Shown here: piece after piece, positions 32,067 to 48,903 of the stretch
Numbering within the stretch: the first letter of the stretch is position 1
How the letters are laid out: every line of letters starts with the position of its first letter
Assembly: GCF_030814655.1 (NCBI RefSeq)
Contig: NZ_JAUSVK010000001.1
Span: 751,043-815,042 of the forward strand
Reading direction: 5' to 3'
Length of the DNA stretch: 64,000 nucleotides
Origin: Labrys monachus
GTDB taxonomy: Bacteria > Pseudomonadota > Alphaproteobacteria > Rhizobiales > Labraceae
Made by a program: the position numbers and the translations under genes
Notes under the pieces: generated by a model
The model's input: only the letters and a program-made list of their open reading frames with translations
Databases searched by the model: none
What the model was told of the DNA's origin: nothing

Positions 32067-32196
32067 CGTCGCCCGCTGAAAGCGTGTCCGATCGCAGCGC
32101 GGTCGACCTGGAAATTGGCGAAGGCGCCTGAGCGGCATAACCGACCGAGAGGGCCAGCCGAAGTTCCATATGGCTATGGAGGCCTCCCGGCCGGGG

Positions 32197-33078
32197 TCAT
32201 TTCCGGAGCGGAAGCGGGACGTGGCCTGTCCATGCCTCGAACAGCGCCGTGAAGACATGCGCCATGCCGCGTGAAAGATGGCCTCCGGTCGGCGCGATGC
32301 ATCGCACGGCGATCCCGCAGCCATTGGGAAGTTCGCTCATGCCGATACGGCACTCCAGGGCGTCGAGCTGCTTCGTCAAGGCGGCGGTATCGATGTCGGA
32401 TCGCCGGGGGCCGAGCGCCACCAGATTGCCCATCGCCCGATAGGGGCCGAGCGGCGAAGAGGGGCCGGCGAATTGAATGCCGCTCACGGCACCCCGATCC
32501 CACACCAGAATGCGCCCGCTTTCGTCGCGAATGCAGAGTTCGGTGCGCAATTTGCCGAAGGGGCGGCCGCCTCCGCCGGGGGCGTGCGTGGCGAAGCCGT
32601 CGGCCAGGATGGCGCGCGCCCCGGGGGACAGCGTCACCGCCGTCTCGGCACGAAGATGGGCATCGGGAAAGAGAATGAAGGGGTCGTTGGTGAGGGCGAG
32701 CAGGGCATCGGCGTGGAGTCTCACCGCCGTCGAAAGGCGCGCTTCGTCGCCCGTCGTGGCATGGACGACGGTCGCGGCCTGGCTGGTGACATGGGCCTGT
32801 GCACCGCTGCCGACCTCGATGTCGAGCCCCAGCCTGTCGCCCCTGTACAGCCCGCCCGAGCTCGATTGCAGGTAGAGCGTGGCGAGGTCCGGCAGATTGC
32901 GGTCGAGCGAGAAAGGCCGGGTGATGTGAAAGGGATAGGGAACATGCTGGCGCGCCAGCACGGTGCGTCCACCGCCGCGGACGAAGCTGAGACGGGCCGT
33001 CGCATCGCGGGCGCCCGGCATGCCCTGAGCGACCGGCTCGGCATGCCGCAGATCGGCCCTCTGGGGCGGGGCGTTCAT
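32197..33078 (-). CDS. ureD: Urease accessory protein UreD
   Basis: This 293-residue UreD/UreH protein carries nickel-insertion complexes (UreD-UreF-UreG) onto apo-urease. Family blocks are [40 protein letters not shown] and [15 protein letters not shown]-like [13 protein letters not shown]. It is the last gene of the minus-strand urease set and overlaps ureG by 4 bases. In most bacteria ureD stands first; here it is last. About 130 bases without a gene separate it from the convergent flavoprotein gene. Confidence 0.93.
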
Positions 33079-33725
33079 CGGAACAGCACCGCCTTCATGA
33101 TCTGATCGGCGACGTCGGTCACGCCGGCGCCCCGGCGCGCGTCGGTCAGGATGACGGAGCGTTGCGCGCGGACCGTCCGGGCCTCCTCCAGCATCCGCGG
33201 CAGGTCGACACCGACATGGGGCGCGAGATCCTGCTTGTTGATCACCAGGAGGTCGCAGCGCAGCGTTCCCGGTCCCTTCTTACGAGGAATGTCGTCGCCG
33301 CCGGCCACGTCGATGACGAAGATCCACCAATCCACCAGGTCGAGAGAGAAGGTGGAGGCAAGATTGTCCCCGCCGGACTCGAACAGGATCAGCTCCACGC
33401 CGGGAAAGCGGGCCTCCAGTTCGTCTCCTGCCGCGATGTTCAGCGTGGGATCTTCGCGGATGACGGTGTGCGGGCACGCGCCGGCCTCGACGGCCGACAC
33501 ACGCTGCGGATCGATGAGCCCGGAACGCCTGAGACGTTCGGCGTCCTCCTTGGTGACGAGATCGTTGGTCACCACGGCGAGGTCGACCCCGCGTGCGTGA
33601 AGGACGGGAATGAGGGCCTCGATCAGCGCCGTCTTGCCGGAGCCGACCGGTCCGCCGATGCCCACGCGCGCGGCCGCCGAACGGCCGGGCCCCTCGCCGG
33701 CGAGATCATGTTCGAGCCTGTTCAT
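33075..33725 (-). CDS. ureG: Urease accessory GTPase UreG
   Basis: This 216-residue SIMIBI GTPase drives nickel delivery to urease. The P-loop is [17 protein letters not shown], with [15 protein letters not shown], the nickel-binding Cys-Pro-His in [17 protein letters not shown], the Walker-B-like [15 protein letters not shown] and the base motif [12 protein letters not shown]. All key residues are present. It overlaps ureC and ureD by 4 bases on either side. Confidence 0.97.
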
Positions 33726-35434
33726 CGCAACATGTACCGCTGCGCGAGGGGAAGCGTGTCATAGGGCTCGCAGGTGGCCAGGGTTCCATCGACGAACACC
33801 TCGAAGGTCTGCGGATCGACGCGGATATCGGGGCAGGCCGCGTTCAGCACCATGTCCCGCTTGGTCAGCGAGCGCGTGCCGCTGGCCGGCAGCAACGCCT
33901 TGGAAAGGCCCAATGCCCGCCCAAGCCCCTCCTCGATCGCCAGGGGATGGACGAAGCACGCCGACAGGGCCGGCGCGGCGCGCCCGAAGGCGCCCCATTG
34001 CGGGCGCAGCAGCACGGGCTCGCAGGTCATGAGCGAGGCGGCGGAATCGCCCATGGCGCCCCAGGCGATGAAACCGCCCTTGACGACCAGTTCCGGCTTG
34101 ATGCCGAAGAAGCCGGGGCGCCAGACGACGATATCCGCCATCTTGCCGTCCTCGAGCGAGCCGATATGCCCTGATATGCCGAAGGTGCGCGCGGCGTTGA
34201 TGGTGTATTTGGCGATATAGCGCTTGATGCGGGCGTTGTCGCCCATGCCCGGCACGTCCTCCGGCAGGGCACCGCGCTGGTCCTTCATCTTCGAGGCGAG
34301 TTGCCAGGTCCGGCAGATCACCTCGTGGATCCGCCCCATGCCCTGGCTGTCGGAGCCGAGCATCGAAATGGCGCCCAGATCGTGCAGCACGTCCTCGGCC
34401 GCGATCGTCTGCGGACGGATCCGGCTCTCGGCGAAGGCGACGTCCTCGGGGATCGCCGGGTTGAGGTGGTGGCACACCATCGTCATGTCGAGATGTTCGT
34501 CGAAGGTGTTGACCGTGTAGGGGTTCGTCGGATTGGTCGACGACGGCAGGCAGTTGCCGATGCCGGCCACGCGGATGATGTCCGGCGCGTGCCCTCCGCC
34601 GGCGCCCTCGGTGTGGTACATGTGAATGGTGCGCCCGCCGATGGCCGCCAGCGTGTCTTCCAGAAACCCGCTTTCGTTCAGCGTGTCGGTGTGGATCTGC
34701 ACCTGGAAGTCGAGTTCGTCGGCGACGCGCAGGCACATGTCGATCGGCGCCGGCATGGAGCCCCAGTCCTCGTGCAGCTTCAGCCCCAGGCAGCCCGTCC
34801 GCATCTGCTCGACGAGCGAAGCCGGCTTGTGGCTGTTGCCCCGGCCGAGGAAGCCGAAATTGATCGGCCAGTGCTCGGCCGCCTGCAGCATCTTGCCGGT
34901 GTTGAACGGCCCGCCGGAATCGATGCCGACGGTGATCGGGCCGAGCGAGCCGCCGATCATCGTGGTGATGCCGCTGGCGATGGCGTGCTCGCACAGGCCG
35001 GCGCTATCGAAATGCACATGCACGTCGATGGCGCCGGCGGTGGCGATCAGTCCCTCGCAATCGCGCACCGTGGTCGCCTGGGAGACGATGAGGCGTGGAT
35101 CGACGCCGTCCATGATCGCCGGATTGCCGGCCTTTCCCAGGCCGACGATCCTGCCGTCCTTGATGCCGAGATCGCCCTTCACGATACCGAGCATCGCGTC
35201 GATCACCACGACATTGCAGAGCAGCATGTCCAGCGCGCCCTCGGCGGCGGTAACGCCGGCGGCCATGCCGGCGCCGTCGCGCAGCGTCTTGCCGCCGCCG
35301 TGAAGGCATTCGTCGCCATAGACCGTGTGGTCCTTCTCGACCACGGCGACCAGCGAGGTGTCCGCCAGCCGAATTCCGTCGCCGACCGTCGGCCCATACA
35401 TGTGGGCATAGTCCCTGCGTCGCATCGTGACCAT
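33722..35434 (-). CDS. ureC: Urease alpha subunit
   Basis: This 570-residue catalytic subunit hydrolyses urea to ammonia and carbamate at a dinickel centre. Nickel ligands and catalytic residues are all visible: HVHF in [13 protein letters not shown], the carbamylated lysine in [10 protein letters not shown], His in QIHTDTLNE and [13 protein letters not shown], the flap Cys-His in [20 protein letters not shown], and Asp in GSDSQGMGR. The protein should be active once metallated. It lies 2 bases after ureAB and overlaps ureG. Confidence 0.98.
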
Positions 35435-35436
35435 GG

Positions 35437-36120
35437 TCAGGCTCCCTTGAATCCGCCCTCGCGGGCCCGGCGCAACGCCTCGCCTGCATCGGCGGCGTCA
35501 TCGCAGAGATTGTTGAAACCGCTGATCCTGCGCTCGCCGCCGAAGGCGACCAGCACCAGCTTCTTGCTCTGCCCGGGCTCGAAACGCACCGCCGTGCCGG
35601 CGGGGATATCGAGGCGTCTGCCAAAGGCTTTCGAGCGGTCGAATTCGAGCGCCCTGTTCACTTCGAAGAAGTGGAAGTGCGAGCCGATCTGTATCGCCCG
35701 ATCGCCGGTATTGACCGCCGTGACCTCGATGCGGTCACGCCCGGCGTTGAGTTCGATGTCGCCTTCGAGCGGCAGCAGCGCGCCCGGCTCGAGCCCGTCT
35801 TCGGCGGCCCCCTCGCGCGGGCGGATCGGTTCGTGAATGGTGACCAGCTTCGTGCCGTCGCGGAACACGCATTCCACCTGCAGGATCGGGATCAGCGAGG
35901 CGACCCCGGCCATGACGTCGTCGGTGCTCAGGATGGTCGAACCGAAGCCCATCATGTCCGACACGCTGCGGCCATCCCGCGCGCCCTCGAGTATTTCATC
36001 GGTGATCAGGGCGACGGCCTCCGGATGGTTGAGCTTCAGCCCCCGAGCCCAGCGTTTGCGCGCCAGCTCCGCCGCCGTGAAGATCGTCAGACGTTCGAGT
36101 TCCGTCGGGGTCAAGAGCAT
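35437..36120 (-). CDS. ureAB: Fused urease gamma-beta subunit
   Basis: This 227-residue chain joins the gamma subunit (residues 1-~100, [20 protein letters not shown] through [16 protein letters not shown]) to the beta subunit (from ~105, [20 protein letters not shown], then [16 protein letters not shown]). Most proteobacteria encode these separately; a fusion is known from Helicobacter UreA and some other bacteria. It directly precedes ureC. Confidence 0.95.
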
Positions 36121-36147
36121 GTGTTTCTACCTGAGGATGGAGCCTGG

Positions 36148-36831
36148 TCAGTTCGAGAACAGCCGGATCTCCGACGTCGCATGCCGCATGGTGGCGATGT
36201 CGAGCATCGGTGTGAGGCCCTCGAAATCGTCGCATGAGAGCGAACCGGCCGGACCGGCGCCCTCGATCAGACCTGCGATGAGCGGGAGCGTCTCGCCAAG
36301 GCAGCGCTGGGCCTCCACCGCGCCGACGAGGCTGAGGCGGACCGCAGCGCTGGTCATGCCGGCGACCACGCCATAGGCCGAGGCGGCGAGGGCGGATCGC
36401 TCATCGATGCCGCAGGCCCGCCATATGGCACCCTGGACGATCGGAAGATGGCCGGGCGTGTGCCGCTGCTCGATCAGCCTTTTCAGCTCCGGGGCGGTCT
36501 TGGTGCCGATCCGTGCATGGGCCGTCAGGAACGCCAGCCCGTTGCGGCGCGATCCCGATCGCTGCAGGGCGGAAATCGTCGCAGCGTCAAAGCGATGATC
36601 GATTTCCGCGAGGCGGGTCATGTCGTCGCCTGCGGCGAAAGCCAGCGATACGGCGATGCGATCCATGCCCCTCCAGCGATGCGTGAGCGTCATCGCCAGG
36701 ACGTCGATCAGCCCCTCGCCATCCAGGCGCTGGCCGAGCTCGGCCAGTCCTTCGATCCCGTTGGAGAAGGCAAATCCACCGTTGGGGAAAGCCGTATCCG
36801 CCTGCCAGATCGTTGTGACGAGGTTCAACAT
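36148..36831 (-). CDS. ureF: Urease accessory protein UreF
   Basis: This 227-residue all-helical UreF bridges UreD and UreG during urease activation. Family blocks are WQADTAFPNGGFAFSNGIEG (normally DSAFPVGGFSHSGGLE), LAFLTAHARIGTKTAPE and ASAYGVVAGMTSAAVRL. The ATG at 36831 lies within the ureE 3' end (7-base overlap). Upstream in-frame sequence is a shadow of ureE. Confidence 0.92.
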   Translation of the reverse strand: MLNLVTTIWQADTAFPNGGFAFSNGIEGLAELGQRLDGEGLIDVLAMTLTHRWRGMDRIAVSLAFAAGDDMTRLAEIDHRFDAATISALQRSGSRRNGLAFLTAHARIGTKTAPELKRLIEQRHTPGHLPIVQGAIWRACGIDERSALAASAYGVVAGMTSAAVRLSLVGAVEAQRCLGETLPLIAGLIEGAGPAGSLSCDDFEGLTPMLDIATMRHATSEIRLFSN

Positions 36832-37292
36832 GGCGCCTCGCCGGCCTTGGGCGGGCTTGCCTCGACACGGGTATCGAGGCCCAGGGACGCAAGCCGGGCG
36901 AGATAGGCCTCCTCCGGACCTTCGAGCGCGACGGCAATGGCCTCGGCCTCGAACCGCACGCGCCAATGCAGGTTGCCGACGTGATAGCCAAGTTCGAGCG
37001 CCGAGGCGACATCGCGCGGTTTGAGCCGGAGCCAGCGCTCGGCGTCGACCTTCACCACGATCGCCCGCTGCTCTTCGAACAGCAGGACGGCGCCATCCGC
37101 CAGCGGCTCGTCCCGCGGCAGCGCTATCGCCAGGTCTGAACCGGCGCTCGTTACCGCCCGAAACCGCCGCCGCGCCAGTTCGGCCGCCGGCAGCAGGAGC
37201 CACTCGACCCGGCCATGATGTTCCATGTGGTGCAGCCGTTCGGCGAAGCCGTCATCCAGTCGATGTCCAAGCACGCGATTGACGAGCAACAT
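36825..37292 (-). CDS. ureE: Urease accessory nickel chaperone UreE
   Basis: This 155-residue UreE has an N-terminal peptide-binding domain (RVEWLLLPAAELARRRFRAV) and the metal-binding domain with the diagnostic ELGYHVGNLHWRVRFEAEAI. The His-rich C-terminal tail of some UreE proteins is absent; the chain ends KAGEAPC. The start MLLVNRVLGHRL at 37292 was chosen on family alignment. It begins the urease group and follows a 107-base gap after an unknown gene. Confidence 0.88.
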   Translation of the reverse strand: MLLVNRVLGHRLDDGFAERLHHMEHHGRVEWLLLPAAELARRRFRAVTSAGSDLAIALPRDEPLADGAVLLFEEQRAIVVKVDAERWLRLKPRDVASALELGYHVGNLHWRVRFEAEAIAVALEGPEEAYLARLASLGLDTRVEASPPKAGEAPC

Positions 37293-37399
37293 GAGGAGGT
37301 TCCCACGAACGAAGGTTGGTCTGTCAGGTAGCGCCCCGGGACGACCCGATCGTCGAGGCGGCCGGAAGCGCGAAGGATGCGATCGCAATCCCGGGCGAT

Positions 37400-37726
37400 C
37401 TAGGCCGCCCGCGGATTGGGAAGCCGAGGCGCGGTCTCCTGCGCTGAGCTGCGTTTGAAGAGGAAAATGCAGCGCCCGGTTCCGTCATCGTCGGCGGCGG
37501 GGACATGGAGCTGTTCCGTCAGGTAGCGGAACACGATGCGCGCGGCCGCCGCCGACAGGGTGGGCTTCCACAGCCAGATGTCGGTGTCGGCATCGACCGC
37601 ATGACGCGCGAACAAGGCCTGCGCCGGGTCCTCGGCGCATCCCACGCACCATTCGGCGGGCCTGCCTCCGAATTCCTTGATATAACTCAGGAATTCAAAT
37701 TTCACCTGCTGCGGGCTGAACACCAT
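37400..37726 (-). CDS. Small protein of unknown function in the amidase/urease array
   Basis: This 108-residue soluble protein starts with VKFEFLSYIKEFGGRPAEWC, followed by VGCAEDPAQALFARHAVDAD. The W-x-V-G-x-A-x-D-P ... LF-x-x-H pattern recalls a family of short proteins with a GIY-YIG-like beginning (WYVGIA-DP--RLF--H), as far as I remember, but here key positions look changed (CVG in place of YVG). It lies 5 bases after the Sel1-repeat gene and shares its orientation with all neighbours, so it belongs to the operon. Function is unknown. Confidence 0.65.
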   Translation of the reverse strand: MVFSPQQVKFEFLSYIKEFGGRPAEWCVGCAEDPAQALFARHAVDADTDIWLWKPTLSAAAARIVFRYLTEQLHVPAADDDGTGRCIFLFKRSSAQETAPRLPNPRAA

Positions 37727-37731
37727 CGGCC

Positions 37732-38430
37732 TTACCTTGGAAGGGGGTTGAGACGGGCGTGGCGGGAGGTTTCCGCGGTTCGGTTGCGCCAGCGCCCCAC
37801 CGCGGCGCTCCCGGCCCGCTTCTCATCCGCCGACATCTGCGCCACGAGCGCTTCGAGCGCCGTCAGCGCGGTTCCCACCCCGTGCTGGGCGGCCAGGGAA
37901 AACCAGGTGAACGCTTCCACGCGGTCCTTATCGACACCCAGACCGTTCGCGTACATGAAGCCAAGGCGGGCTTGGGAAGGATAATGTCCGGTTTCGGCGG
38001 CCGAGCGGTACCAGCGCGCTGCCGCGGCGTGGTCCGGCGGCATGCCCTCGCCCTTCGAGAGAAGGGTGGCCAGATTGTATTGGGCGAAAACGTCGCCCTG
38101 CTCCGCCGCCTTCTGGAGCCAGCTTATGCCGGCGGGAATGTCGCGGAGCGTGCCGTGCCCCATTGCGAGCATGGCGCCCGCATTGGTCTGCGCGAGCGTG
38201 ATGCCGGCCTCCGCGCTGTCGAGATAGAGCGCGAAGGCCCGGGCAAGCGAGGATTCCACGCCTTCGCCATTGGCGTACATCGCGGCCAGCCACGTCTTCG
38301 CATCCGCGTTGCCCTCATCGGCCAGCGACGAGAAACGGGCGAAGGCGTGGTCATAGTCCCCTCGTCCGTAAGCAGATATGGCAGCGCCGAGCGCCGTCGC
38401 CTCCTCGGCCGGGATGTCCAGCGACAGCAT
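37732..38430 (-). CDS. Sel1-repeat (TPR-like) protein
   Basis: This 232-residue protein has about four Sel1-like repeats of ~36 residues: GNADAKTWLAAMYANGEGVE, GITLAQTNAGAMLAMGHGTL, GDVFAQYNLATLLSKGEGMP and GHYPSQARLGFMYANGLGVD. No signal peptide is seen, so it probably acts in the cytoplasm as a scaffold or adaptor. It sits 3 bases after the Rieske-like gene. Its presence between enzyme genes suggests it helps assemble or regulate one of them. Confidence 0.88.
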   Translation of the reverse strand: MLSLDIPAEEATALGAAISAYGRGDYDHAFARFSSLADEGNADAKTWLAAMYANGEGVESSLARAFALYLDSAEAGITLAQTNAGAMLAMGHGTLRDIPAGISWLQKAAEQGDVFAQYNLATLLSKGEGMPPDHAAAARWYRSAAETGHYPSQARLGFMYANGLGVDKDRVEAFTWFSLAAQHGVGTALTALEALVAQMSADEKRAGSAAVGRWRNRTAETSRHARLNPLPR

Positions 38431-38433
38431 GGG

Positions 38434-39525
38434 TCAGCCTCTCGGGTTCTGGTAGAGCGGTTGCGGAAAATCTTCGCGCGGCATGCGAGCGATCCGCGCC
38501 GCGATGGTCCTCTGCATCCATGCGCCCGCCGCCTCGCTCTGAAAGGGGAGCGCGGCCCCGACCGTCTGCGGGCGATACGGGGTTCCCCAGCGGGCCAGAT
38601 CGTCGTGCTCCGCCTCGGCGCGCTCGGCGCGAACCCGGATCTCGTCGCGCCAGAAGAGGCGGTCGGCTCGCGGATCGGCGCCGAAGGTCGACAGCCGGCA
38701 CAGCGTCTGCCCCAGCCCCGTGGGTTGCAGCGTCATGACGGCGGTGCTGTCGTCCGTCGCGATCAGGACCAGATTGGGAAACAGCCAGGCCGCGCGCGCC
38801 GGCGTGCCGTCGGACAGGGTGGCGGCGGCGAACATCCACACAGGGTTTCCGGCGATCGTCGCTTCGCCGGCGACCAGGGCCTGCCCCATGAGCTTCCAGT
38901 TTGCGCCATGTTCGAGCCAGACGTCGTCCGAGCGGCGCGATTTGTGATTGCCGAAAAACCCGCCAAGGCCGCCGAGCGTCGTCAACTCGGCCTCCGGCCA
39001 TGCGGGAGCGACGTCGAGATTGACGAAGATCAGCGGCCCCCAGCTCCGCACATGCGCGGTCAGCAGCCGTTCGGGGCGCAGGCCCAGATATTGGTGCATC
39101 TCGGGGGTGCCGTCGCCGAGGTCGCTGGCCGGAATGGCACCCCGGTCGCGGCTGAAGCCGCAAGAGGTGAAGGAGCACTTGGTCTTCGTTCCGGTCTGGC
39201 ATTGCAGCGGGACCGTGCGGCAGCCGCCATGCTGCGCCTTGTTGAATCGCGCCACGATCCCCCCGGCCATGCGCTGCACATGCACGCCATGGGTGCCGAC
39301 CGTGAAGGGAAGGAGGTCGCCGTCGGCCGGAATGGCCTCGTGGGCGCCGACGCAGATCCAGTCGCGCGTCCAGACAGCCTCATCCTCGAGCTGGCTGAAC
39401 CGCAGCGAGCGGAAAGCGGCGGCCGGCAGCACCCGCGGGTGCCGGCCCAATGCGTCTGCATAGAAGGCGGCATCCACGAGGTCGCGGCCCTCGTCCCAGT
39501 AACCGAGATCGCGTCTATAGGTCAT
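38434..39525 (-). CDS. Rieske-oxygenase-like protein lacking both canonical metal sites, with a four-Cys cluster
   Basis: This 363-residue protein follows the plan of aromatic-ring-hydroxylating oxygenase alpha subunits. It has an N-terminal LEDEAVWTRDWICVGAHEAI-type start, an IPADGDLLPFTVG strand pair, HVRSWGPLIFVNLDVAPAWP, and LEHGANWKLMGQAL where oxygenases have NWKxxxENF. The Rieske CxH...CxxH ligands are altered: residues 95-101 read NKAQHGG where CRHRG is usual, and CSFTSC (117-122) replaces CPYHGW. Four cysteines (102, 109, 117, 122) plus His99 cluster there. The mononuclear-iron His residues after NWK are also missing. The start at 39525 was chosen on homology. It lies 71 bases after the formamidase large subunit. 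Enzyme role is unknown; it may bind another metal or serve as a structural partner. Confidence 0.8.
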   Translation of the reverse strand: MTYRRDLGYWDEGRDLVDAAFYADALGRHPRVLPAAAFRSLRFSQLEDEAVWTRDWICVGAHEAIPADGDLLPFTVGTHGVHVQRMAGGIVARFNKAQHGGCRTVPLQCQTGTKTKCSFTSCGFSRDRGAIPASDLGDGTPEMHQYLGLRPERLLTAHVRSWGPLIFVNLDVAPAWPEAELTTLGGLGGFFGNHKSRRSDDVWLEHGANWKLMGQALVAGEATIAGNPVWMFAAATLSDGTPARAAWLFPNLVLIATDDSTAVMTLQPTGLGQTLCRLSTFGADPRADRLFWRDEIRVRAERAEAEHDDLARWGTPYRPQTVGAALPFQSEAAGAWMQRTIAARIARMPREDFPQPLYQNPRG

Positions 39526-39596
39526 GTCCGGCGTCCTGCGAGAAGGGCCGGCACGCGCGCAAAGCCGCGCGGGTGCCGCAAGTCCATTCGAGGGGC

Positions 39597-41993
39597 TCAG
39601 GCGGTCGCGGCAAGCGCCGGCGACTCGTAGTCGGCGCGGCCTCGATGCTTGATCGCCTCCGCCGGTGCCGGCGGCAGCGGACCATCCGCCGAGAAGCGGT
39701 CGAGCACGTTCTTCACCAGGGTGGAGACGTTGTTGCGGCCCTCGTTCCACGGCAGGGAGCCGCAGAAGGCGATCGAGGAGAAAGCGAAGCATCCACCGCC
39801 GTTCGGCGTCTCGTGGAAGGCGACGTCGCCGCGCACGCGCGGGTGGACCGTTCCGTCGAGGCCCTGCTGGTTGAAGCCGAAATCCTCCATGACGAGGAGA
39901 TAGGCTTCGGTGTGCCGGCCCGCCGAGGTCGCAACCGCGAGCGTGTGGGGCGGAGAGCCGAGCGTGACGTCGACGATGTCGAGCTCAAGGCCGGCGCAGC
40001 CGCCGCCGACGAGGCCGAAATTGCCGATCGGCTCTTCGTAGGAGATGCCCTCGAAGGCCCAGGACACGCGCGGATCGAGACTGTCCGGCGTCCGGCTGTA
40101 ATAGGTCGAGATATCGAAGCCTTCATTGGTCATGCCGACACCGGCGACCGAGTAGAGCGAGCGGCCGCGGAACCGCCACATGCCGCCGAGCTCTCCGGTG
40201 CCCTGGTGGTAATACTCGCCAGGCTCGGCTCGCCAGGTACGGATGCCGGATTCGCAGCGCCGCATCTCGGTGACCACGCCCCGGCCGACAGTGTCGTAGG
40301 CCGGATGATAGGAGTGCACCCAGTACCAAGCGTCGGCGCCCATATACATCAGGCGTCCGCCGCGTTGCGTGTAATTGTGCAGCGCATCGAGCTGGGCGCC
40401 CGAATTGTGCTCGGGATGTGAGCCGGTGATGATGACGTTGTAGTTTTCGAGCCGGGCGAGGCCGTCATAGGTGACGTCTTCGTCGGTGATCACGTCATAT
40501 TCGTAGCCCATCGTCTCCAGCCAGTAGATGAGATGGAGATCGGCGGGGTATTGCCACGGTGCCTGGGCGAGGAAGTGGTCGTATTTCGGCCGGATCGACA
40601 GGATCGGACGCAGGCGCGACGACAGGCAGATGCCCGAGCCATCGGTGTGGGTATCGTAGATCGAGCCGCCATATTCGCGGTGCTCGGCCAGGAACATGTT
40701 CTGGTGCTGCATGATCGGCACGCGGTAGACGAACAGTTCGGCGCCGCCGGCATTGCACGCCACATGCTCGTTGGCATAGGCCATGTAGCTGATCGTCGGG
40801 ATCATGACGGCGATCTTGGACTGTTCCTTGCCGATCTTCGGCACGATCCAGAAGGGGATGTAATCCTCGTCGCCGTCCGCGGTCGTCAGCTTCAGCGCAT
40901 AGGAGCGGCTCTTGATCTGCTCCGGCACCATCCATTCGACGTCCGCCTCCCAGCGGGCGTCGTCGACGTCGTCATCATGGAAATGGATCGCGCCATATTC
41001 TTTCTTGGCGTATTTCCAGTCGAAGTTCTCGCCCGCCCAGTTGTAGCCGGTGAGGGCGCGCGTCGGACAGTTTACCAGCGTCGCATCGAGGCGGTACGGG
41101 CCGTTGTCCTTGGCGACGATGGTGCTGATGCCGTCCCAGAAGTCCCAGGCGGCGACGATGAGCGCGGACAATTCACCCGTCGGGCCCGAATTGCGGCGTT
41201 CGGTGAGGCCGGGCTGCGCACCGCCCTTCATCTGTTCGATCTCGAAGCGGCTCAGCGCCTTCTTGACGATACGCGGGCTGTCGATCTTGCCGTTATACTT
41301 GCCGGTAAACCACACGCCGGCAGGAAGCGAGGACTTGCCGAGCGGATCCTCGCCGATCGTCTCGACATAGGCCGCAAGCGCGACCGGCGCTTCGGTGTGC
41401 ACGATCTGCGTCTTGATCGTGGTCCTGACCGGCTCGATCACCGGATCGAGGGCATAGACGATCTGCGGCTCGTGATAGAGCACGACCTCGCCGGTTTGCG
41501 CATCGAAGCTGGCCGCGACGAAATGCCAGGCATGATCGCGGATCGGCACGCCGGTCGTGATCCTGTGCTCGTTGATGCGAAGCTCGACGAAGCCTTCCTC
41601 GTTGATGAAGAGGCCGTAGCCCTTTCCGTCCATCCATTTGGTCAGGAGGCCCTGGGCGCCGTGCTTCCAGTAACGCGGATGGGTCTTCGGCGTGGTCGGC
41701 CAGATATGGCATTGGAGCGTGAAGCTCTCGACGTGGAATTGCGGCCTGTCCTCGACATATCCGTAGGATCCGCCGTGGATGATCTGCTTCCGTCCCTGGT
41801 AGGTTCCGTTGGCGTCCGCCGCGACCGGCTTTTCGATGAAGCCTGGTCCGCGGGGATTGGTGTCGCCGTGGATCATATGAACGACTTCGGCCTTGAATTG
41901 GGCCGGGCCGTCGCAATTGACATAAAACTTGATCTTTTCGCCCGGATGGACGCCAAACTTGTCAGCGTACCCGGTCAGCCGCATGGCGCACAT
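39597..41993 (-). CDS. dmfA2: N,N-dimethylformamidase-like large subunit
   Basis: This 798-residue protein matches the DMFase large subunit in length and plan: an N-terminal beta-sandwich (GVHPGEKIKFYVNCDGPAQF), a concanavalin-like lectin domain (~residues 90-300), and a C-terminal glutamine-amidotransferase-like fold (YNVIITGSHPEHNSGAQLDA). The characterised enzyme hydrolyses DMF to dimethylamine and formate with a mononuclear iron held by Tyr-Tyr-Glu. Candidates here are Tyr403/Tyr406, Tyr441/Tyr446 and Glu528; the assignment is by spacing from memory. The real substrate could be another N-substituted amide or urea. GGAG precedes the ATG by 9 bases. The small subunit gene lies 139 bases upstream. 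Confidence 0.88.
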   Translation of the reverse strand: MCAMRLTGYADKFGVHPGEKIKFYVNCDGPAQFKAEVVHMIHGDTNPRGPGFIEKPVAADANGTYQGRKQIIHGGSYGYVEDRPQFHVESFTLQCHIWPTTPKTHPRYWKHGAQGLLTKWMDGKGYGLFINEEGFVELRINEHRITTGVPIRDHAWHFVAASFDAQTGEVVLYHEPQIVYALDPVIEPVRTTIKTQIVHTEAPVALAAYVETIGEDPLGKSSLPAGVWFTGKYNGKIDSPRIVKKALSRFEIEQMKGGAQPGLTERRNSGPTGELSALIVAAWDFWDGISTIVAKDNGPYRLDATLVNCPTRALTGYNWAGENFDWKYAKKEYGAIHFHDDDVDDARWEADVEWMVPEQIKSRSYALKLTTADGDEDYIPFWIVPKIGKEQSKIAVMIPTISYMAYANEHVACNAGGAELFVYRVPIMQHQNMFLAEHREYGGSIYDTHTDGSGICLSSRLRPILSIRPKYDHFLAQAPWQYPADLHLIYWLETMGYEYDVITDEDVTYDGLARLENYNVIITGSHPEHNSGAQLDALHNYTQRGGRLMYMGADAWYWVHSYHPAYDTVGRGVVTEMRRCESGIRTWRAEPGEYYHQGTGELGGMWRFRGRSLYSVAGVGMTNEGFDISTYYSRTPDSLDPRVSWAFEGISYEEPIGNFGLVGGGCAGLELDIVDVTLGSPPHTLAVATSAGRHTEAYLLVMEDFGFNQQGLDGTVHPRVRGDVAFHETPNGGGCFAFSSIAFCGSLPWNEGRNNVSTLVKNVLDRFSADGPLPPAPAEAIKHRGRADYESPALAATA

Positions 41994-42132
41994 GTGTCGA
42001 TTCTCCGGTAGGGAAGGTGACGTCAGACAAGCCGCTCCCGTTCGCGGCCCGATCGGGCCGCGGCGGAGAACCCATGCTGATGCGAAGCGAGGATGTTCGA
42101 GATGCGCCGGCGCAGAGCGCCGGACGATCAGG

Positions 42133-42573
42133 TCAGGTGACGGGCCAGTTGTCGTCCCGGTGCTTCCAGCCTTCCTGGAAGTGCTCGGGCATGCCCGCGG
42201 TCTCGGGCAGTTCGTCGAGGCGCCTCAGGAAGATGGCGTGCTGGATTTCCTGCTCGCAGGTATAGACCTTGTCGTCGACGAATTCCGGCGGCACGCCGCG
42301 AATGCCCGACAGGCGCCCGATGCGCCATTCGGCATCGACCTTGGTGCAGATGACGACGAGCTTGCCCTTGGGTGATTCCCCCCGCATGCGGAGCAGCACG
42401 CGCCGCAGGTCCGGATTCTCGTGAACGCCGCCGGTGACGACCGTGGTGTCGCCGGCGTCCTGGCATTTGAGCACGGAGAAGCCGGCGACGCCCTTCATGG
42501 AGTCGACGCATTCCCGGTGCTCCCTGATCATGGCCTCCCGCTCGGGTGTGCCTTTCTTCGGAATCGGTATCAT
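42133..42573 (-). CDS. dmfA1: N,N-dimethylformamidase-like small subunit
   Basis: This 146-residue protein corresponds in size and position to the DMFase small subunit, which packs against the large chain. Visible blocks are ECVDSMKGVAGFSVLKCQDA, RGESPKGKLVVICTKVDAEW and VYTCEQEIQHAIFLRRLDEL, with a tail ending HRDDNWPVT. The ATG at 42573 has GAGGAAG upstream; an in-frame GTG at 42621 would add 16 residues but has no ribosome site. It is the first gene of the catabolic part of the array, behind a motif-rich upstream region. Confidence 0.8.
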   Translation of the reverse strand: MIPIPKKGTPEREAMIREHRECVDSMKGVAGFSVLKCQDAGDTTVVTGGVHENPDLRRVLLRMRGESPKGKLVVICTKVDAEWRIGRLSGIRGVPPEFVDDKVYTCEQEIQHAIFLRRLDELPETAGMPEHFQEGWKHRDDNWPVT

Positions 42574-42690
42574 CCCAACTTCCTCTGGTGTGATCGAAGA
42601 ATTGTCGCCACGCGTCGTCACGATGATCGGCGCCGTGTCCTGAATTCAGCCAGGCAAGCTGCCCGGGGCCTCAGTGTAGAACTTGATCGA

Positions 42691-42751
42691 TACTAGACGG
42701 TTTGTCAATTAAATTAGTCGTTCGATCTAGACTATATTCTCTTTGTCTAGA
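42691..42751 (-). promoter_or_regulatory. Cluster of three GTCTAGA-like sites upstream of the amidase genes
   Basis: Three CTAG-centred sites lie here: CTAGACG at 42693-42699, TCTAGAC at 42726-42732 and GTCTAGA at 42745-42751. The last two are 20 bases centre to centre, two helical turns. A -35-like TTGACA (minus strand, 42703-42708) sits next to the first. The third overlaps the urtE stop codon. The same motif occurs upstream of the importer operon, so a shared regulator is likely. Confidence 0.55.
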
Positions 42752-43451
42752 TGGTCATATGACGCTCGACCAATTCGTCCGTCATCTCGGCCATGCCGCC
42801 TCGGGCGACGACACGGCCATTGTCGACCATGAGGAAGGCATCGCCGAGCTTGCGCGCCACCTTGATGTGCTGTTCGGTCACGACCATGCTGATGCCCAGC
42901 TCGCGGTTGAGCATTTTCAGGATCTCGCCGATCTCATGGACGATGTTCGGCTGGATGCCTTCGGTCGGCTCGTCGAGCAGCAGGATCTGCGGATCGACGG
43001 CGAGCGCACGGGCAATGGCGAGCTGCTGCTTCTGCCCGCCGGACAGAAGTCCGGCGCGGCGATCGAGGTTCTCCTTCAGATAGGGAAAGATGCGCAGGCA
43101 GATCTCCGGGATCTCGCCGGACTTGTCGGCGCGGGCGAAGGTCCCGAGGAGAATATTCTCGCGGACGGTGAAGTTGGACAGGATGCCCCGGCCCTGCGGC
43201 ACATAGCCGAGTCCGTGATGGGCGCGCACATGCGTCGGTTGCCCGCTGATCTCGACGTCGTTGATGCGGATGGCGCCGGTCGAGCGGTCGGTCAGCCCCA
43301 TGATGGTGCGCATCAAGGTCGTCTTGCCCACCCCGTTGCGGCCGAGCACGCACAGGCACTGGCCCTTCTCCATCTCGAAGGAGAAGTCTTTCAGGATGCG
43401 GGTCGCGCCATAATAGGAAGTGACGTTGTCGAAACTCAGCAACGGGTTCAT
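42747..43451 (-). CDS. urtE: ABC importer ATPase, UrtE-like
   Basis: This 234-residue LivF/UrtE-type ATPase has Walker A GRNGVGKTTLM, signature LSGGQKQQLAIARAL, Walker B ILLLDEPTEGIQPNIV and the H-loop TEQHI. The sequence EPTEGIQPNIVHEIGEIL is typical of UrtE. Its start overlaps the urtD stop by 4 bases (ATGA). It is the last importer gene and ends at the amidase promoter region. It energises uptake of urea or a short amide with UrtD. Confidence 0.92.
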   Translation of the reverse strand: MNPLLSFDNVTSYYGATRILKDFSFEMEKGQCLCVLGRNGVGKTTLMRTIMGLTDRSTGAIRINDVEISGQPTHVRAHHGLGYVPQGRGILSNFTVRENILLGTFARADKSGEIPEICLRIFPYLKENLDRRAGLLSGGQKQQLAIARALAVDPQILLLDEPTEGIQPNIVHEIGEILKMLNRELGISMVVTEQHIKVARKLGDAFLMVDNGRVVARGGMAEMTDELVERHMTI

Positions 43452-44194
43452 GCCGCCTCCTGCTCGCCGAGATACACGTCCCGCACGCGCCGGTCGGCTT
43501 CGATCTGCTGGATCGAACCCTGGGCGAGCAGCGACCCCATATGCATCACCACCACGACGTCCGCGATCTCGCGGACGAAGCCCATATCGTGCTCGACCAC
43601 CAGCAGCGTGGCGGATTTGCGCAGATCCTTGAAGATCCGGGCGGTCTTCTCGATCTCGCTTTCGGTCATGCCGGCGATCGGCTCGTCCATCAGCAGCAGC
43701 CGAGGCTCCTGCATGAGAACCATGCCGATCTCCAGCCATTGCGTCTCACCGTGGGAGAGAATGCCGGCGCGGTCCTTCAGCCGGCCTGTCAGGCCGGCGA
43801 GGGTGGCGACTTCATCGAGCTTGGCCTGAAGTCCGGCCTTGCGGAACTTGAACAGGTTGAGGAACGGATTGGTCTGACGGCTGTAGGCGACCTCGAGGTT
43901 CTGTTTCACCGTCATGGCGCGCAGCACGGCCGGGACCTGAAACTTGCGGCCTATGCCGGCCCGGGCGATCAGATGCTCGGGCTTGGCGGTGATGTCGTCA
44001 TTGGCGAATGTGATCCTGCCGGATGTCGGCTTGATGCGTCCCGTGATGAGATCCATCGTCGTGGTCTTGCCGGCGCCGTTCGGGCCGACCAGGCAGCACA
44101 CGGTGCCCTCGACGACTTCCATGCTGAAGTCGCTGATGACCTTGGTGGCGTCGAAGCTCTTCGACAGATTGCTGATTTCGAGAAGACCGGGCAT
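43448..44194 (-). CDS. urtD: ABC importer ATPase, UrtD-like
   Basis: This 248-residue LivG/UrtD-type ATPase has Walker A GPNGAGKTTTMDLITG, the signature region LSHGETQWLEIGMVL (the SHGxxQWLEI form is diagnostic of UrtD/FmdF-like proteins), Walker B RLLLMDEPIAGMTESE and H-loop VEHDMGFV. It pairs with UrtE on the cytoplasmic face. It is 7 bases after the UrtC-like gene. Confidence 0.92.
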   Translation of the reverse strand: MPGLLEISNLSKSFDATKVISDFSMEVVEGTVCCLVGPNGAGKTTTMDLITGRIKPTSGRITFANDDITAKPEHLIARAGIGRKFQVPAVLRAMTVKQNLEVAYSRQTNPFLNLFKFRKAGLQAKLDEVATLAGLTGRLKDRAGILSHGETQWLEIGMVLMQEPRLLLMDEPIAGMTESEIEKTARIFKDLRKSATLLVVEHDMGFVREIADVVVVMHMGSLLAQGSIQQIEADRRVRDVYLGEQEAA

Positions 44195-44201
44195 GGGGCG
44201 C

Positions 44202-45302
44202 TCACTCGGCTGGCATATGCCTGCCGCCGTCGGGCGCAGGCGAGGAGGTCGGGTTTCGCCGCTCGAAAAGGCCGAGCCCCGTCTCGACGAGGCTGGCGAG
44301 GCCGTTCGGCAGGAATCGCACCACGACGATGAAGAAGCCGCCCAGGATCAACAGCCAGGTCGCGAGGAAGGTGTCCCCGAGATAGCTCTGCGCGCCTTGA
44401 ATGATGAAGGCGCCGAGGATCGAGCCGAGGAGCGAGTGGCGCCCGCCGATCGCCGCCCAGATCACCATCGAAAGGCTGAAGCCGACGTCCAGCTGGGCGG
44501 GCGAGACATATTGCACGAGCATGACCCAGCAGCAGCCCGCGATCGCCGCGATCAGGCCGGAGATGGTGTAGATCACCGTCTCGTAGCCGGCGACGCTGTA
44601 GCCGAGGAAGCGCACGCGCTCGCTGTCCTCGCGGATCGCCTGCGCGACGAGGCCGAAGGAGCTCTGGGTGATGAGCTTTGCCACCAAAGTGGCGCCCATC
44701 AGAAAGCCGAACACGACCCAGTAGGCGGTGGGGCTGTAGGGATCGATCTCCACGCCCGCGAACTGGAAGGCGGAGGGCGGCGTCAGGCCGTTGACGCCGC
44801 CGGTATAGGCCTGCCGGTCGAGGATGATGGTGTAGAAGGCCGACAGCATGGCGAGCGTCATGATGGCGAAGAACGGCCCGGACACGCGAGCGCGGAACAT
44901 GATGCCGCCGAACACGGCGCAGAACAGGGTCGGCACGGCGACCGCGAGGATGAGCCCGAACGCCGTGCTCTGGAATGGTTGCCACAGCATGGGCAGGTGA
45001 TCGAGGCTGTTGTTCAGCATGAAGGGCGGAATCGGATTGGATTCCGTCTGGCTCTGCATCTGCATGGTCATCGCCATGCCATAGGCACCGAGACCGAAGG
45101 CGATGCCCTGGCCGAGATTCAGGATGCCTCCGAAGCCCCAGCACAGGCTGATCGAGAGCGCCAGCATGCCGTAGACGCCATAGGTCGAGAGCTGGTTCAG
45201 CAGGAAGCTGTCGCTCACCGTCACCGGGATGATCGCCAGCGCCGCGAAGAAGGCGACATACACGACCCATTGCGCGATCTTGTTGTGGTAGAGGTTGCGC
45301 AT
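44202..45302 (-). CDS. urtC: ABC importer permease, UrtC-like
   Basis: This 366-residue LivM-type permease has about ten transmembrane helices. It shows the conserved INLGQGIAFGLGAYG block near residue 75 and an EAA-like loop AIREDSERVRFLGYSV before the last helices. The C-terminus is a soluble tail rich in Pro and Gly. Together with UrtB it forms the channel for urea or short-chain amides. Confidence 0.92.
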   Translation of the reverse strand: MRNLYHNKIAQWVVYVAFFAALAIIPVTVSDSFLLNQLSTYGVYGMLALSISLCWGFGGILNLGQGIAFGLGAYGMAMTMQMQSQTESNPIPPFMLNNSLDHLPMLWQPFQSTAFGLILAVAVPTLFCAVFGGIMFRARVSGPFFAIMTLAMLSAFYTIILDRQAYTGGVNGLTPPSAFQFAGVEIDPYSPTAYWVVFGFLMGATLVAKLITQSSFGLVAQAIREDSERVRFLGYSVAGYETVIYTISGLIAAIAGCCWVMLVQYVSPAQLDVGFSLSMVIWAAIGGRHSLLGSILGAFIIQGAQSYLGDTFLATWLLILGGFFIVVVRFLPNGLASLVETGLGLFERRNPTSSPAPDGGRHMPAE

Positions 45303-45347
45303 GGTTTCAGACCTGTCCTGACACGGCGTTGCTGACGGCGGCGGCGG

Positions 45348-46214
45348 TCATCGCCGGGCTCCTGCCTGTGCGAACAGGCCTTGCGGACGGAACCGCAGGA
45401 AGACCACGATCAGCACGAAGATGATGAAGCGGGCCAAGGTGTCGTTGGTGAAGAAGGCGAACACCGACTGGAGTTCGCCGGTCGCACCGCTCGCCACCAC
45501 GCTTCCCGCCAGCGAGCCGCCGCCGACGACCACCATGAGGAACGCCTGCACGACATAGCTCGCCCCCATCGTGGGCAAGACGATCGCCAGGACGCCGAAG
45601 AGCGCGCCGGCGACACCGGCCAGTCCTGCGCCGAGCGCGAAGGTCATCATATAGATGCGGCCGGAATTGATGCCGAAGGACGCCGCCATCTCCTTGTTCT
45701 GCATCACGGCGCGCACCTGCACGCCAAATCGCGTCTTGTAGAACAGGAGCCAGAGGGCCAGTACGAGCAGCGTCGTCACCAGCAGGACGACGACGCGGAA
45801 TACCGAAATGGAGACGGAGCCCAGCATCACGTTGCTCTGGAAGATTTCCGGCACGGCCAGATATTTCGGATCGCTGCCGAAGAGCAGGCGAACACCCTGC
45901 ATCAGCACCAGCGAGACGCCGTAGGTCGCCAGCAGCGTGTCGAGCGGGCGATTGTAGAGATAGCGGATCAGGCAGCGCTCCAGCACCAGTCCGACGATGA
46001 CGAAGGAGGCCGGCAGGCACAGCAGATACGGCAATCCGAGGTAGAACTGCAGCATGTAGGAGCTGTAGGCGCCGAGCATGATCAGCTCGCCATGCGCCAT
46101 GTTGATGACGCCGGCCGTGCCGTAGATGATCGTCAAGCCAAGCGCGGCGATCAACCAGATGCTGGCGATGCTCACCCCGAGGATGAGCGCATTCAGAAGC
46201 GAACCCAGATCCAT
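45348..46214 (-). CDS. urtB: ABC importer permease, UrtB-like
   Basis: This 288-residue LivH-type permease has about eight helices. IYGTAGVINMAHGELIMLGA is the family signature and FGVQVRAVMQNKEMAASFGI is the ATPase-contact loop. The start MDLGSLLNAL at 46214 was chosen from family alignment; upstream residues are Ser/Arg-rich and unlikely. It lies 45 bases before the UrtC-like gene and 111 bases after the binding-protein gene, a gap with no visible gene. Confidence 0.92.
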   Translation of the reverse strand: MDLGSLLNALILGVSIASIWLIAALGLTIIYGTAGVINMAHGELIMLGAYSSYMLQFYLGLPYLLCLPASFVIVGLVLERCLIRYLYNRPLDTLLATYGVSLVLMQGVRLLFGSDPKYLAVPEIFQSNVMLGSVSISVFRVVVLLVTTLLVLALWLLFYKTRFGVQVRAVMQNKEMAASFGINSGRIYMMTFALGAGLAGVAGALFGVLAIVLPTMGASYVVQAFLMVVVGGGSLAGSVVASGATGELQSVFAFFTNDTLARFIIFVLIVVFLRFRPQGLFAQAGARR

Positions 46215-46325
46215 TGATCGTATCCGTCGAGCCGTTGAGAGCCATCCGTGCGACAGGGGCGCGCATCCATGCACGGAATGCGAAAGGGGTCCCGCGGTGC
46301 GTGACGCCGCAAGACCCCGTTCATG

Positions 46326-47633
46326 TCAGATGACGTTCTTGCGAATCTTGCCGTCGGGCGCCTTCAGGCCGTCCTTGGTGCAGACGCCCGCGTCCGGATA
46401 GATGGAATAGGGATTGGGGGCGACGTGCTTTTCGGCTGCCTTGACGATCTTGAAGGTGCCGTCGGCCTGGCACTGGCCGATCTTCGGCTTCAGCCAGGTG
46501 TTGAAGTTGTCTTCGTCGATCCAGACCAGCCCTTCCGGCGAGATGTCGTCCTCGACACGCACGCCGCCCGAATGGTCGCGGATGATGCGGGGGGTGACGT
46601 TCTCGAAGCCCACCGCGGCGGCGGCCTTCTCGAAGCCGGCCTTGAACACATAGGCGGAGGTGTAGGTCTCCTCCATATTGTAGTGGGTCGTGCCGTTCTT
46701 GCCGTATTTGCTCTTCAGGAAGCTTTCGACGAATTTGTGGTTGGTCGGGGTGTCGAGCGACTGGAAATACGGCGCGGACAGGAAGTGGCCGGCGCCGAAT
46801 TCCGCGCCCATGGCCCGTGTCTCGATCTCGCCTGTCGTCAGCGAGGCGATCGGCATCTTGTCGACCTTGAAGCCTTCCTGCTTGAACTGCTTGTGGAAGG
46901 CGATGTCGGACGCGCCGACGACCGTCGAGAAGATGAAGTCAGGATTCGCGTCGCGGATCTTGTTCAGGACAGGCCCGAATTCCGAACTGCCGAGCGGAAT
47001 ATACTCCTCGCCGAGCAGCTCGCCGCCGGCCTTCTCCAGCCATACCTTGGCATTCTTGTTCGATTCCTTCGGCCAGACGTAGTTCGAGCCGACGAAGAAT
47101 ACGCGCTTGCCGAACTGCTGCACCATGAAGGGGATGAGGTCCTGCGAATGCTGGTTCGCGAGCGGCCCGGTACAAATCGTGTTCTGCGTGCATTCCGCGC
47201 CCTCATAGCAGGTCGGATAGTAAAGCAGATGGTCGCGCTGCATCACCGTCGGCAGGATCGCCTTGCGGCTGGCCGAGGTGTAGCAGCCGAAGATCGCGAT
47301 GACCTTGTCGCGCAGGATGAGTTCCTTGGCCTTTTCCGAATAGACGGAGAAGTCGGACTTGGCGTCGACGATCACAGGCTCGATCGGTACGCCTGCCACG
47401 CCGCCCGCCTTGTTGATCTCGTCGATGGCGTATTGCATGACGAGCGTGGAGTCCTCCTCGGGAACGGCGAGCGAGCCGGTCAGCGAGAACAGAAGGCCGA
47501 CTTTGATCGGCTCGCCCTTTTTCAGGGTCGCCCCCCAGGCCTCACCGGACTTGGGCAGCCAAAGATGAGGCATAGCAAGCGTGACGGAAGCGGCGACTGT
47601 CGTCTTCAGAATATTACGGCGTGTGATCTTCAT
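46326..47633 (-). CDS. urtA: Urea/short-amide ABC binding protein, UrtA/FmdD-like
   Basis: This 435-residue periplasmic binding protein begins MKITRRNILKTTVAASVTLA, a Tat-like twin-arginine signal, ending near SGEAWGA. The mature domain matches the UrtA/FmdD branch: IKVGLLFSLTGSLAVPEEDS, VIAIFGCYTSASRKAILPTV, LLYYPTCYEGAECTQNT and VFFVGSNYVWPKES. This branch binds urea and short-chain amides; AmiC-type sensors are relatives. It heads the importer operon and is preceded by GTCTAGA-like sites. Confidence 0.93.
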   Translation of the reverse strand: MKITRRNILKTTVAASVTLAMPHLWLPKSGEAWGATLKKGEPIKVGLLFSLTGSLAVPEEDSTLVMQYAIDEINKAGGVAGVPIEPVIVDAKSDFSVYSEKAKELILRDKVIAIFGCYTSASRKAILPTVMQRDHLLYYPTCYEGAECTQNTICTGPLANQHSQDLIPFMVQQFGKRVFFVGSNYVWPKESNKNAKVWLEKAGGELLGEEYIPLGSSEFGPVLNKIRDANPDFIFSTVVGASDIAFHKQFKQEGFKVDKMPIASLTTGEIETRAMGAEFGAGHFLSAPYFQSLDTPTNHKFVESFLKSKYGKNGTTHYNMEETYTSAYVFKAGFEKAAAAVGFENVTPRIIRDHSGGVRVEDDISPEGLVWIDEDNFNTWLKPKIGQCQADGTFKIVKAAEKHVAPNPYSIYPDAGVCTKDGLKAPDGKIRKNVI

Positions 47634-47681
47634 TTCTGCGACCCCTCGGACATCACGTGTTGAATGGGTGTGTCATCTACT

Positions 47682-47723
47682 CGTCTGGACGTTTTGTCTT
47701 GAACTAGCCTTATCGTCTAGATG
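47682..47723 (-). promoter_or_regulatory. GTCTAGA-like sites upstream of the importer operon
   Basis: CGTCTGGACG (47682-47691) and CGTCTAGATG (47714-47723) lie 48-90 bases before the urtA-like start, 32 bases apart centre to centre. A third CTAG occurs at 47704-47707. The sequence agrees with the sites in front of the amidase genes. Confidence 0.5.
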
Positions 47724-48902: not shown

Positions 48903-48903
48903 G

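Follow-up and report, generated by a model that had tools for sequence, protein, structure and literature searches.

Urease is a textbook case of an enzyme with nearly one substrate, and the fold of N,N-dimethylformamidase (DMFase) has been described only recently. Our literature search, with most subscription papers outside its reach, found no paper that names both enzymes. Relatives of both are encoded in one array of Labrys monachus, at positions 32197-47633, minus strand, of a 64,000-nucleotide stretch of contig NZ_JAUSVK010000001.1 (referred to below as the window). We confirm sixteen genes in this array, all on the same strand and in the order that an earlier note, made from the DNA letters, had given: UrtA, UrtB, UrtC, UrtD, UrtE, DmfA1, DmfA2, a Rieske-like protein (Rsk), a Sel1-repeat protein (Sel1), a small protein (Sm), UreE, UreF, a fused UreAB, UreC, UreG and UreD. 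The locus is real and widely kept. We read the array as a possible inducible island that takes up small N-methylated amides or ureas and hydrolyzes them, a reading to which we give somewhat less than an even chance (roughly 45%).

Five consecutive genes of the array, DmfA1-DmfA2-Rsk-Sel1-Sm, form a fixed unit, and their order is beyond chance, because all five occur together in 20 other genomes and at 76 of 80 independently found loci. The first count comes from a search with DmfA2 of 397 genomes of the order to which Labrys belongs, 83 of which contain a match. There is a gap in identity among these matches: 21 genomes, that of the window included, have a copy at 75-100%, and the next best match stands at 46%. 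The complete unit is found in every one of the 21 genomes (the window and 20 others), with Sel1 and Sm swapped in two of the 20. The second count comes from a scan of named genomes with an alignment of Rsk, from which the best 80 of 103 relatives were taken. DmfA2 (74-94% identity) lies less than 600 bases from Rsk in all 80 loci; all five genes are present in 76, Sel1 and Sm being swapped in 16 of these, and in the other four (L091, L126, L136 and L139) one unit gene is missing where the contig ends. At 19 loci of DmfA2 paralogs (L055-L073, at most 46% identity), matches to Rsk and Sel1 occur only in L071, where they overlap a true unit copy of the same genome. The amidase clade is present in Alpha-, Beta- and Gammaproteobacteria, and plasmid pAMI5 of Paracoccus aminophilus encodes DmfA1, DmfA2, Rsk and Sm, followed by an AmiS/UreI channel, with no match to Sel1. 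The earlier note had allowed for the case that the genes are not found together elsewhere; this did not occur, as the unit is shared by 21 of 21 genomes and 76 of 80 loci, and the amidase and urease genes are often close.

Two kinds of gene recur next to the unit. A Gcw_chp (PF09694) protein (L079:12348-13163 and relatives) comes after Sm at 10 of the 81 named loci; we considered a porin for the gene family after Sm and dropped the idea, the Pfam assignment being to Gcw_chp, a family label without a function. An allantoate-amidohydrolase-type gene is found near the unit in four of the 81 (L084:12099-13409, and L090, L106 and L107), a hint of a connection to ureides.

The closest described relative of the unit's enzyme is the two-subunit DMFase of Paracoccus (DmfA1A2; PDB structure: 6LVB). 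The large subunit DmfA2 (39597..41993, minus strand; PF20254, 285.6 bits; 6LVB at E 3e-150) aligns with it over the full length, and N-acetyl-(R)-beta-phenylalanine acylase is also matched. The small subunit DmfA1 (42133..42573, minus strand) has no Pfam or NCBIfam match and is recognized by its conserved position; it is 146-149 amino acids long in 77 of 77 copies from named loci. According to the structural report, the iron of DMFase is held by Tyr399, Tyr440 and Glu521, with His519 as the catalytic residue (PMC7686228). The window protein retains this two-Tyr, one-Glu site as Tyr404, Tyr444 and Glu526, and the catalytic histidine as His524 (numbering from 41987), and so do all 86 clade members. 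Set against these likenesses, identity to the Paracoccus enzyme is about 37-40%, and two positions differ across the clade. Asn547 of DMFase is replaced by Asp (Asp552 in the window, codon 40332-40334) in 86 of 86 members, where 20 DmfA2 paralogs have Asn in 17 cases and Asp in three; Tyr522 is replaced by His, and is Tyr in 20 of 20 paralogs. A figure legend in the structural report names Asn547 alongside the essential His519, and does not clearly call it essential itself (PMC7686228). A further difference from the Paracoccus system is that genes of this clade are trailed by Rsk and Sm always, and by Sel1 nearly always.

On this evidence we regard it as very improbable that the locus serves ordinary degradation of N,N-dimethylformamide (DMF), with the urease as a hitch-hiker. 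Membership in the DMFase superfamily and the conservation of all iron ligands are what one would expect under that explanation, and methylotrophy is known from the genera of 35 of the 80 named hosts, judged by name. However, the Asn547 position is Asp throughout the clade, and the pAMI5 protein (69% identity, the sole DmfA2 match on that plasmid, and accompanied by Rsk and Sm) comes with an indirect published negative for growth on DMF (PMC4543880). Paracoccus DMFase acts on DMF, N-methylformamide, N-ethylformamide and formamide, and not on urea or acetamide, according to the structural report (PMC7686228).

Genome G000 encodes a second, paralogous DMFase-like large subunit (G000 6476019-6478292, locus L068; 40% identity). 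Matches to a kinase, a regulator, a binding protein, ATPases and DmfA1 lie next to it, without Rsk, Sel1 or Sm.

Rsk (38434..39525, minus strand), identified by sequence similarity, an AlphaFold model and Foldseek, is to be compared with the Rieske oxygenases GbcA and CntA, with which it shares the chain fold and a distant sequence similarity. The model has a Rieske-oxygenase fold with a mean pLDDT of 90, and is closest to carnitine monooxygenase CntA (Foldseek E 9e-16, TM 0.60). Unlike those enzymes, Rsk keeps the ligands of neither metal center. Scan patterns of the Rsk search include parts of the Rsk motif, and conservation was therefore scored on the 21 copies to which DmfA2 had led. In 21 of 21, alignment to a ring-hydroxylating oxygenase places Ala97 at the first Cys of the Rieske center and Thr120 at the second His, while the other two positions of the center are still occupied by His99 and Cys117; the pAMI5 protein has Val and Leu, respectively, at these positions. 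No invariant His, Asp, Glu or Cys occurs beyond residue 171 in the 21 copies, nor beyond residue 127 in a set of 60, so that the 2-His-1-carboxylate iron site is not conserved. Residues 99-122 (39160..39231, minus strand) carry instead an invariant set of His99, Cys102, Cys109, Cys117 and Cys122 (21 of 21 copies), which is retained in pAMI5 and which, judged by its conservation, probably binds a metal with a new ligand set. Model confidence for residues 91-130 is 64-85, averaged by tens. That Rsk is a working oxygenase, demethylating a substrate prior to its hydrolysis, would accord with a fold that matches quaternary-amine Rieske monooxygenases (CntA, stachydrine demethylase); the replaced Rieske ligands, the lost 2-His-1-carboxylate site, and the lack of a reductase or ferredoxin among the sixteen genes make this highly implausible.

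The two remaining partners are less informative. The Sel1-repeat protein (37732..38430, minus strand) is recognized by PF08238 with 108 bits. Sm (37400..37726, minus strand) is a small conserved α/β protein of about 100 amino acids (AlphaFold mean pLDDT 87.6), with no Pfam or NCBIfam match and no PDB fold match at E <=0.001. A role for Sm as a CxxC metallochaperone was considered and dropped, its cysteines not being conserved in the alignment.

The urease half of the array consists of UreE (36825..37292; PF02814, 45.2 bits against a cut-off of 26.9), UreF (36148..36831; PF01730), a UreA-UreB fusion (35437..36120; PF00547 and PF00699 in a single protein), UreC (33722..35434; PF00449 and PF01979), UreG (33075..33725; PF02492) and UreD (32197..33078; PF01774), all on the minus strand. 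Like the canonical ureases of Klebsiella and jack bean, it has all nickel ligands, the catalytic residues and the full accessory gene set. It differs from them by a shortened and rewritten loop at residues 164-171, by Gly in place of Ala363, by the fusion of UreA and UreB, and by its usual occurrence beside a second urease. The substrate loop of the window UreC (34910..34954, minus strand) is three residues shorter than canonical GTxATTCTPG, and Ala167 is replaced; Gly365 (34340..34342, minus strand), in the motif SDSQGMGR, stands for canonical Ala363.

These changes define a clade. UreC matches at E <=1e-100 occur in 277 of the 397 genomes of the order; a variant clade at 75-100% identity to the window protein was found in 29 genomes, the others being at no more than 60% among the matches listed. 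In a tree of 87 UreC proteins, made by a quick method with SH-aLRT support and with long branches flagged by the program, 52 variant-clade members are on one branch (support 95), 33 canonical proteins on another (100), and two intermediates lie between. All 48 distinct clade sequences have a loop ending in (S/C)GG instead of GTxATTCTPG, all 48 have SDSQGMGR instead of SDSQAMGR, and all 48 have intact nickel ligands and catalytic residues. Four more variant UreC proteins from outside the order have the same loop and motif pattern. Among canonical controls, the ATT loop and SDSQAMGR are found in 29 of 29, and the variant loop in none; these controls are a phylum-wide draw of best-scoring Pfam matches, a sample that leans towards the canonical.

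According to a review, the urea nitrogen is held by two backbone carbonyls, those of Ala170 and Ala366 in the Sporosarcina enzyme, equivalent to Ala167 and Ala363 in Klebsiella (PMC7433671). Since the loop change and the change at Ala363 fall on the residues that hold the urea nitrogen, the variant UreC is altered at its substrate site. With the pocket rewritten in this way, plain urea need not be the substrate of the variant urease. More than one UreC match is found in 18 of the 19 genomes that have both the unit and the variant clade, which makes the variant a second urease there; at least nine of the 19 have a separate canonical copy.

Some neighbors and relatives of this urease should be mentioned here. 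Two loci (L210 and L211, with L244 and L243) contain UreC relatives at 64-66% identity with substrate loops that differ again and the motif SDSMGMGR; UreAB adjoins them, and a similarity search of the 20 kb fetched turned up no accessory gene. They are candidates for another branch of non-standard ureases. In L186 (5883-9001), a CbbQ/NorQ-type AAA protein and a VWA protein, assigned by Pfam in this locus only, adjoin the variant urease cluster, and gene pairs alike in size and place, the sole basis of comparison, lie by the variant urease in L187, L188, L192, L193, L195, L197 and L203. Elsewhere, pairs of CbbQ/NorQ-type AAA and VWA proteins activate metalloenzymes.

The importer resembles the UrtABCDE urea transporter. 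UrtB (45348..46214; TIGR03409, 298.8 bits, cut-off 250.3), UrtC (44202..45302; TIGR03408, 320.9 bits, cut-off 296.2), UrtD (43448..44194; TIGR03411, 305.5 bits, cut-off 304.1) and UrtE (42747..43451; TIGR03410, 289.7 bits, cut-off 285.8), two permeases and two ATPases on the minus strand, are all above the curated NCBIfam urea-transporter cut-offs. The difference is in the UrtA-like periplasmic amide/urea-binding protein (46326..47633, minus strand; PF13433), which has PDB relatives including UrtA and AmiC, and which scores 340.6 bits with its best NCBIfam model, TIGR03407, below the urea cut-off of 492.75. Three importer-linked binding proteins from clusters without the unit (407-416 bits) and two AmiC-type proteins (314 and 317 bits) are also under that cut-off; the binding proteins that Noviherbaspirillum and Methyloversatilis encode between Sm and UreE are above it (531 and 518 bits). 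A comparable set is the Urt-like genes beside AmiE in Bradyrhizobium, which a 2010 SIMBAL study argued to carry an amide other than urea (PMC3098086).

The five-gene unit and the variant urease tend to occur together. In the 397 genomes, 19 have both, two the unit only, ten the variant clade only, and 366 neither (Fisher p 3e-23, kinship uncorrected), that is, the clade is present in 19 of 21 genomes with the unit and in 10 of 376 without it. The 19 genomes span nine families, one family accounting for nine of them. In 15 of the 19, a single contig carries unit and variant UreC at a distance of 4.2-22.5 kb; the other four have them on different contigs. In a class-wide draw of 289 genomes the unit was found in three, the window genome included, all with the variant clade (in the other two on separate contigs); four more genomes of this draw have the clade or a close relative of it without the unit. 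Named loci have UreC or UreG at 60% identity or more, within flanks of up to 10 kb, in 26 of 80 cases; 32 with flanks longer than 9 kb show neither gene, and 22 are truncated, one of which (L151) has UreD at its edge. This 10-kb test understated the link, because positions in whole genomes showed more of it. In the 26 loci, urease genes lie downstream and collinear in 19, upstream of UrtA in four, and antiparallel in three, with AmiE or UrtA intervening in some. The coupling of amidase and urease suspected from the window thus extends to other genomes, mostly with physical proximity and in several arrangements; as to the complete order dmfA1-dmfA2-Rieske-like-Sel1-small protein-ureEF, its five-gene part is fixed, and the position of the urease varies or is distant.

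The strong co-occurrence and frequent adjacency would also be expected of a serial pathway, in which DmfA1A2 would release urea from an acyl or formyl urea (alternatively, from an N-substituted one) and the urease would then hydrolyze it. The two betaproteobacterial binding proteins between Sm and UreE that pass the urea cut-off are in its favor. However, the urease clade lacks the amidase in 10 of its 29 genomes, and the amidase lacks the variant urease in two of 21; moreover, the variant urease is altered where urea nitrogen is held (PMC7433671). We consider the serial pathway improbable. The proposal that urea is released from an N-acyl or N-formyl urea found no specific support: what the evidence suggests as a product is methylamine, and the pocket of the urease is rewritten.

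Methylamine is suggested by genes of the N-methylglutamate pathway around the unit. In three loci from Bauldia and Rhodopseudomonas (L149, L153 and L154), sarcosine-oxidase-type and GlxB-type genes lie on the flanks of the unit, joined in L154 by PurU, a set that we take to be the make-up of this pathway. One genome (G284) has a run of GlxB-type, GXGXG, glutamate-synthase-type, glutamine-synthetase-type and PurU-type genes leading directly into UreE, with the urease, the importer and the unit next on the same strand. We used the glutamate-synthase-type gene of the pathway, at 73% identity or more, as a methylamine marker. It is present in 21 of 21 genomes with the unit, against 15 of 59 controls (p 6e-10) that were hand-picked at roughly even steps along the list of the order, one extra control with a 53% match being uncounted. 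The marker lies less than 20 kb from DmfA2 in five of the 21 genomes (G124, G115, G284, G358 and G363).

The other known systems to be considered are the fmd and ami operons for short-chain amides, which the array resembles in having an amidase and an importer or AmiS-type channel, as well as in the AmiC-AmiR amide-sensing regulators of its relatives. The window differs from them by its kinase-regulator pair, by a DMFase-type amidase with three partners, and by the absence of AmiE; neither AmiE nor an FmdA short-chain amidase is found among the sixteen genes. Genomes with the variant urease and without the unit come closer to such operons: in nine fetched regions of these ten genomes, AmiE is found in five, AmiR in six and a Urt-like importer in seven. 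In all 20 variant-urease regions, AmiE occurs in 13 and AmiR in 14. The labels were checked on examples, AmiE as an NCBIfam equivalog, AmiR by its AmiR_N and ANTAR domains, and AmiC by its best PDB match.

These regions bear on the alternative, raised in the earlier note, that the locus salvages nitrogen from amides in general: the importer would take up formamide, acetamide and urea, and each enzyme would act on its own substrate, with neither N-methyl specificity nor a shared intermediate. Such a locus would operate in the manner of the Methylophilus fmd cluster, or of an ami operon to which urease had been added. The suggestion gains support from genomes where the unit is absent and the variant urease has AmiC-AmiR-AmiE and a Urt-like importer for neighbors, and also from the fmdCABDEF cluster described in a review. 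It leaves unexplained the methylamine marker in 21 of 21 unit genomes, the rewritten urease pocket, and the retention of a second urease; we judge it unlikely, though it deserves to be kept in view.

The most economical account is that of a small-amide and urea island biased to N-methyl compounds. A Urt-type importer would bring in a small amide or urea. DmfA1A2 would cleave an N-methyl amide, freeing methylamine for the N-methylglutamate pathway, and the variant urease, its pocket reshaped at the site of the urea nitrogen, would hydrolyze another compound of that class; our best single guess at its substrate is N-methylurea. Amidase and urease, sharing importer and control, would more probably work side by side on related substrates than one after the other, and Rsk, not an oxygenase, may assist DmfA1A2, along with Sel1 and Sm, in maturation or assembly. 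A bolder version gives the variant clade, as a nickel enzyme within the urease family, an N-substituted urea such as N-methylurea for its natural substrate instead of urea, with an ordinary urease kept at its side. The clade would then share one catabolic module with an iron amidase, and this amidase would depend on a protein that was once a Rieske oxygenase and has become, with its new Cys4/His site, a metal-loading or assembly partner; we find this version doubtful.

Several observations weigh against the N-methyl island. Kinship inflates the statistics, 9 of the 19 co-occurrences falling within one family, and no urease gene at 60% identity or more is found within 10 kb in 32 of the 80 named loci, all 32 having flanks longer than 9 kb. 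Two genomes with the unit (G124 and G232) have no UreC match at all at E 1e-100, and 10 of 29 genomes have the variant clade without the unit. In the window genome the methylamine marker is megabases away from the island. The marker is also present in eight of ten genomes with the variant urease and no unit, so the amidase is not singled out, and the methylamine signal is as much one of the island as of the amidase. Metal binding by Rsk is drawn from conservation, in a segment (residues 91-130) of model confidence 64-85.

In titles and abstract beginnings, with most subscription papers outside the search, we found nothing on this urease clade or on the amidase unit. As far as our searches reach, two things are new: an amidase unit of fixed make-up whose Rieske-fold partner is disarmed, and a urease clade whose substrate loop is rewritten. 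A urease clade with an intact catalytic core and a rewritten loop, retained next to an ordinary urease and linked with amide and methylamine genes, allows a direct test of whether ureases with other substrates exist. In the amidase clade, the DMFase fold may have a natural function, as opposed to one driven by solvents. Rsk, if its proposed role is true, would be an oxygenase scaffold reused for another purpose, and the island as read here would add a route to methylamine and nitrogen for methylotrophs and others.

Within the array, 8 of 15 junctions are of 7 bases or less (-7 to +7), and the remaining seven are 27 to about 175 bases long, the widest being UrtA-UrtB, UrtE-DmfA1, DmfA1-DmfA2 and Sm-UreE; these lengths use hand-corrected starts for UrtB, UrtE and UreE. 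The description of most genes as overlapping or a few bases apart is therefore about half true. Sigma-70 promoter-like matches in the array (2, shuffle mean 2.4) and terminator-like matches (4, shuffle mean 8.6) show no excess over shuffled sequence and are uninformative on co-transcription, and the 19 matches of a sigma-54 promoter scan of the window (shuffle mean 26) do not exceed chance.

Three genes divergent from UrtA would, by their position, be candidates for control of the array: a LuxR-type response regulator (48186..48902, plus strand; PF00072 and PF00196), a homologue of which adjoins the unit in many relatives; a hybrid histidine kinase (48868..50484, plus strand; HATPase_c, HisKA, PAS_7 and receiver domains); and a periplasmic-binding-type protein (50429..51748, plus strand; PF13458, 3H5L at E 2.6e-116), a candidate sensor found with the kinase and regulator near the unit in some relatives. 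The last was considered as an AmiC homologue; its PDB relative is 3H5L, and the idea was dropped.

Base composition changes along the array. In the interval 32001-48000 of the window, G+C content is 0.665-0.690 at 32-40 kb and 0.594-0.640 at 40-48 kb, so that the urease-Rsk half differs compositionally from the importer-amidase half. Convergent with UreD, at 30381-32066, lies a gene for an FAD-dependent oxidoreductase with a cyclic-nucleotide-binding domain.

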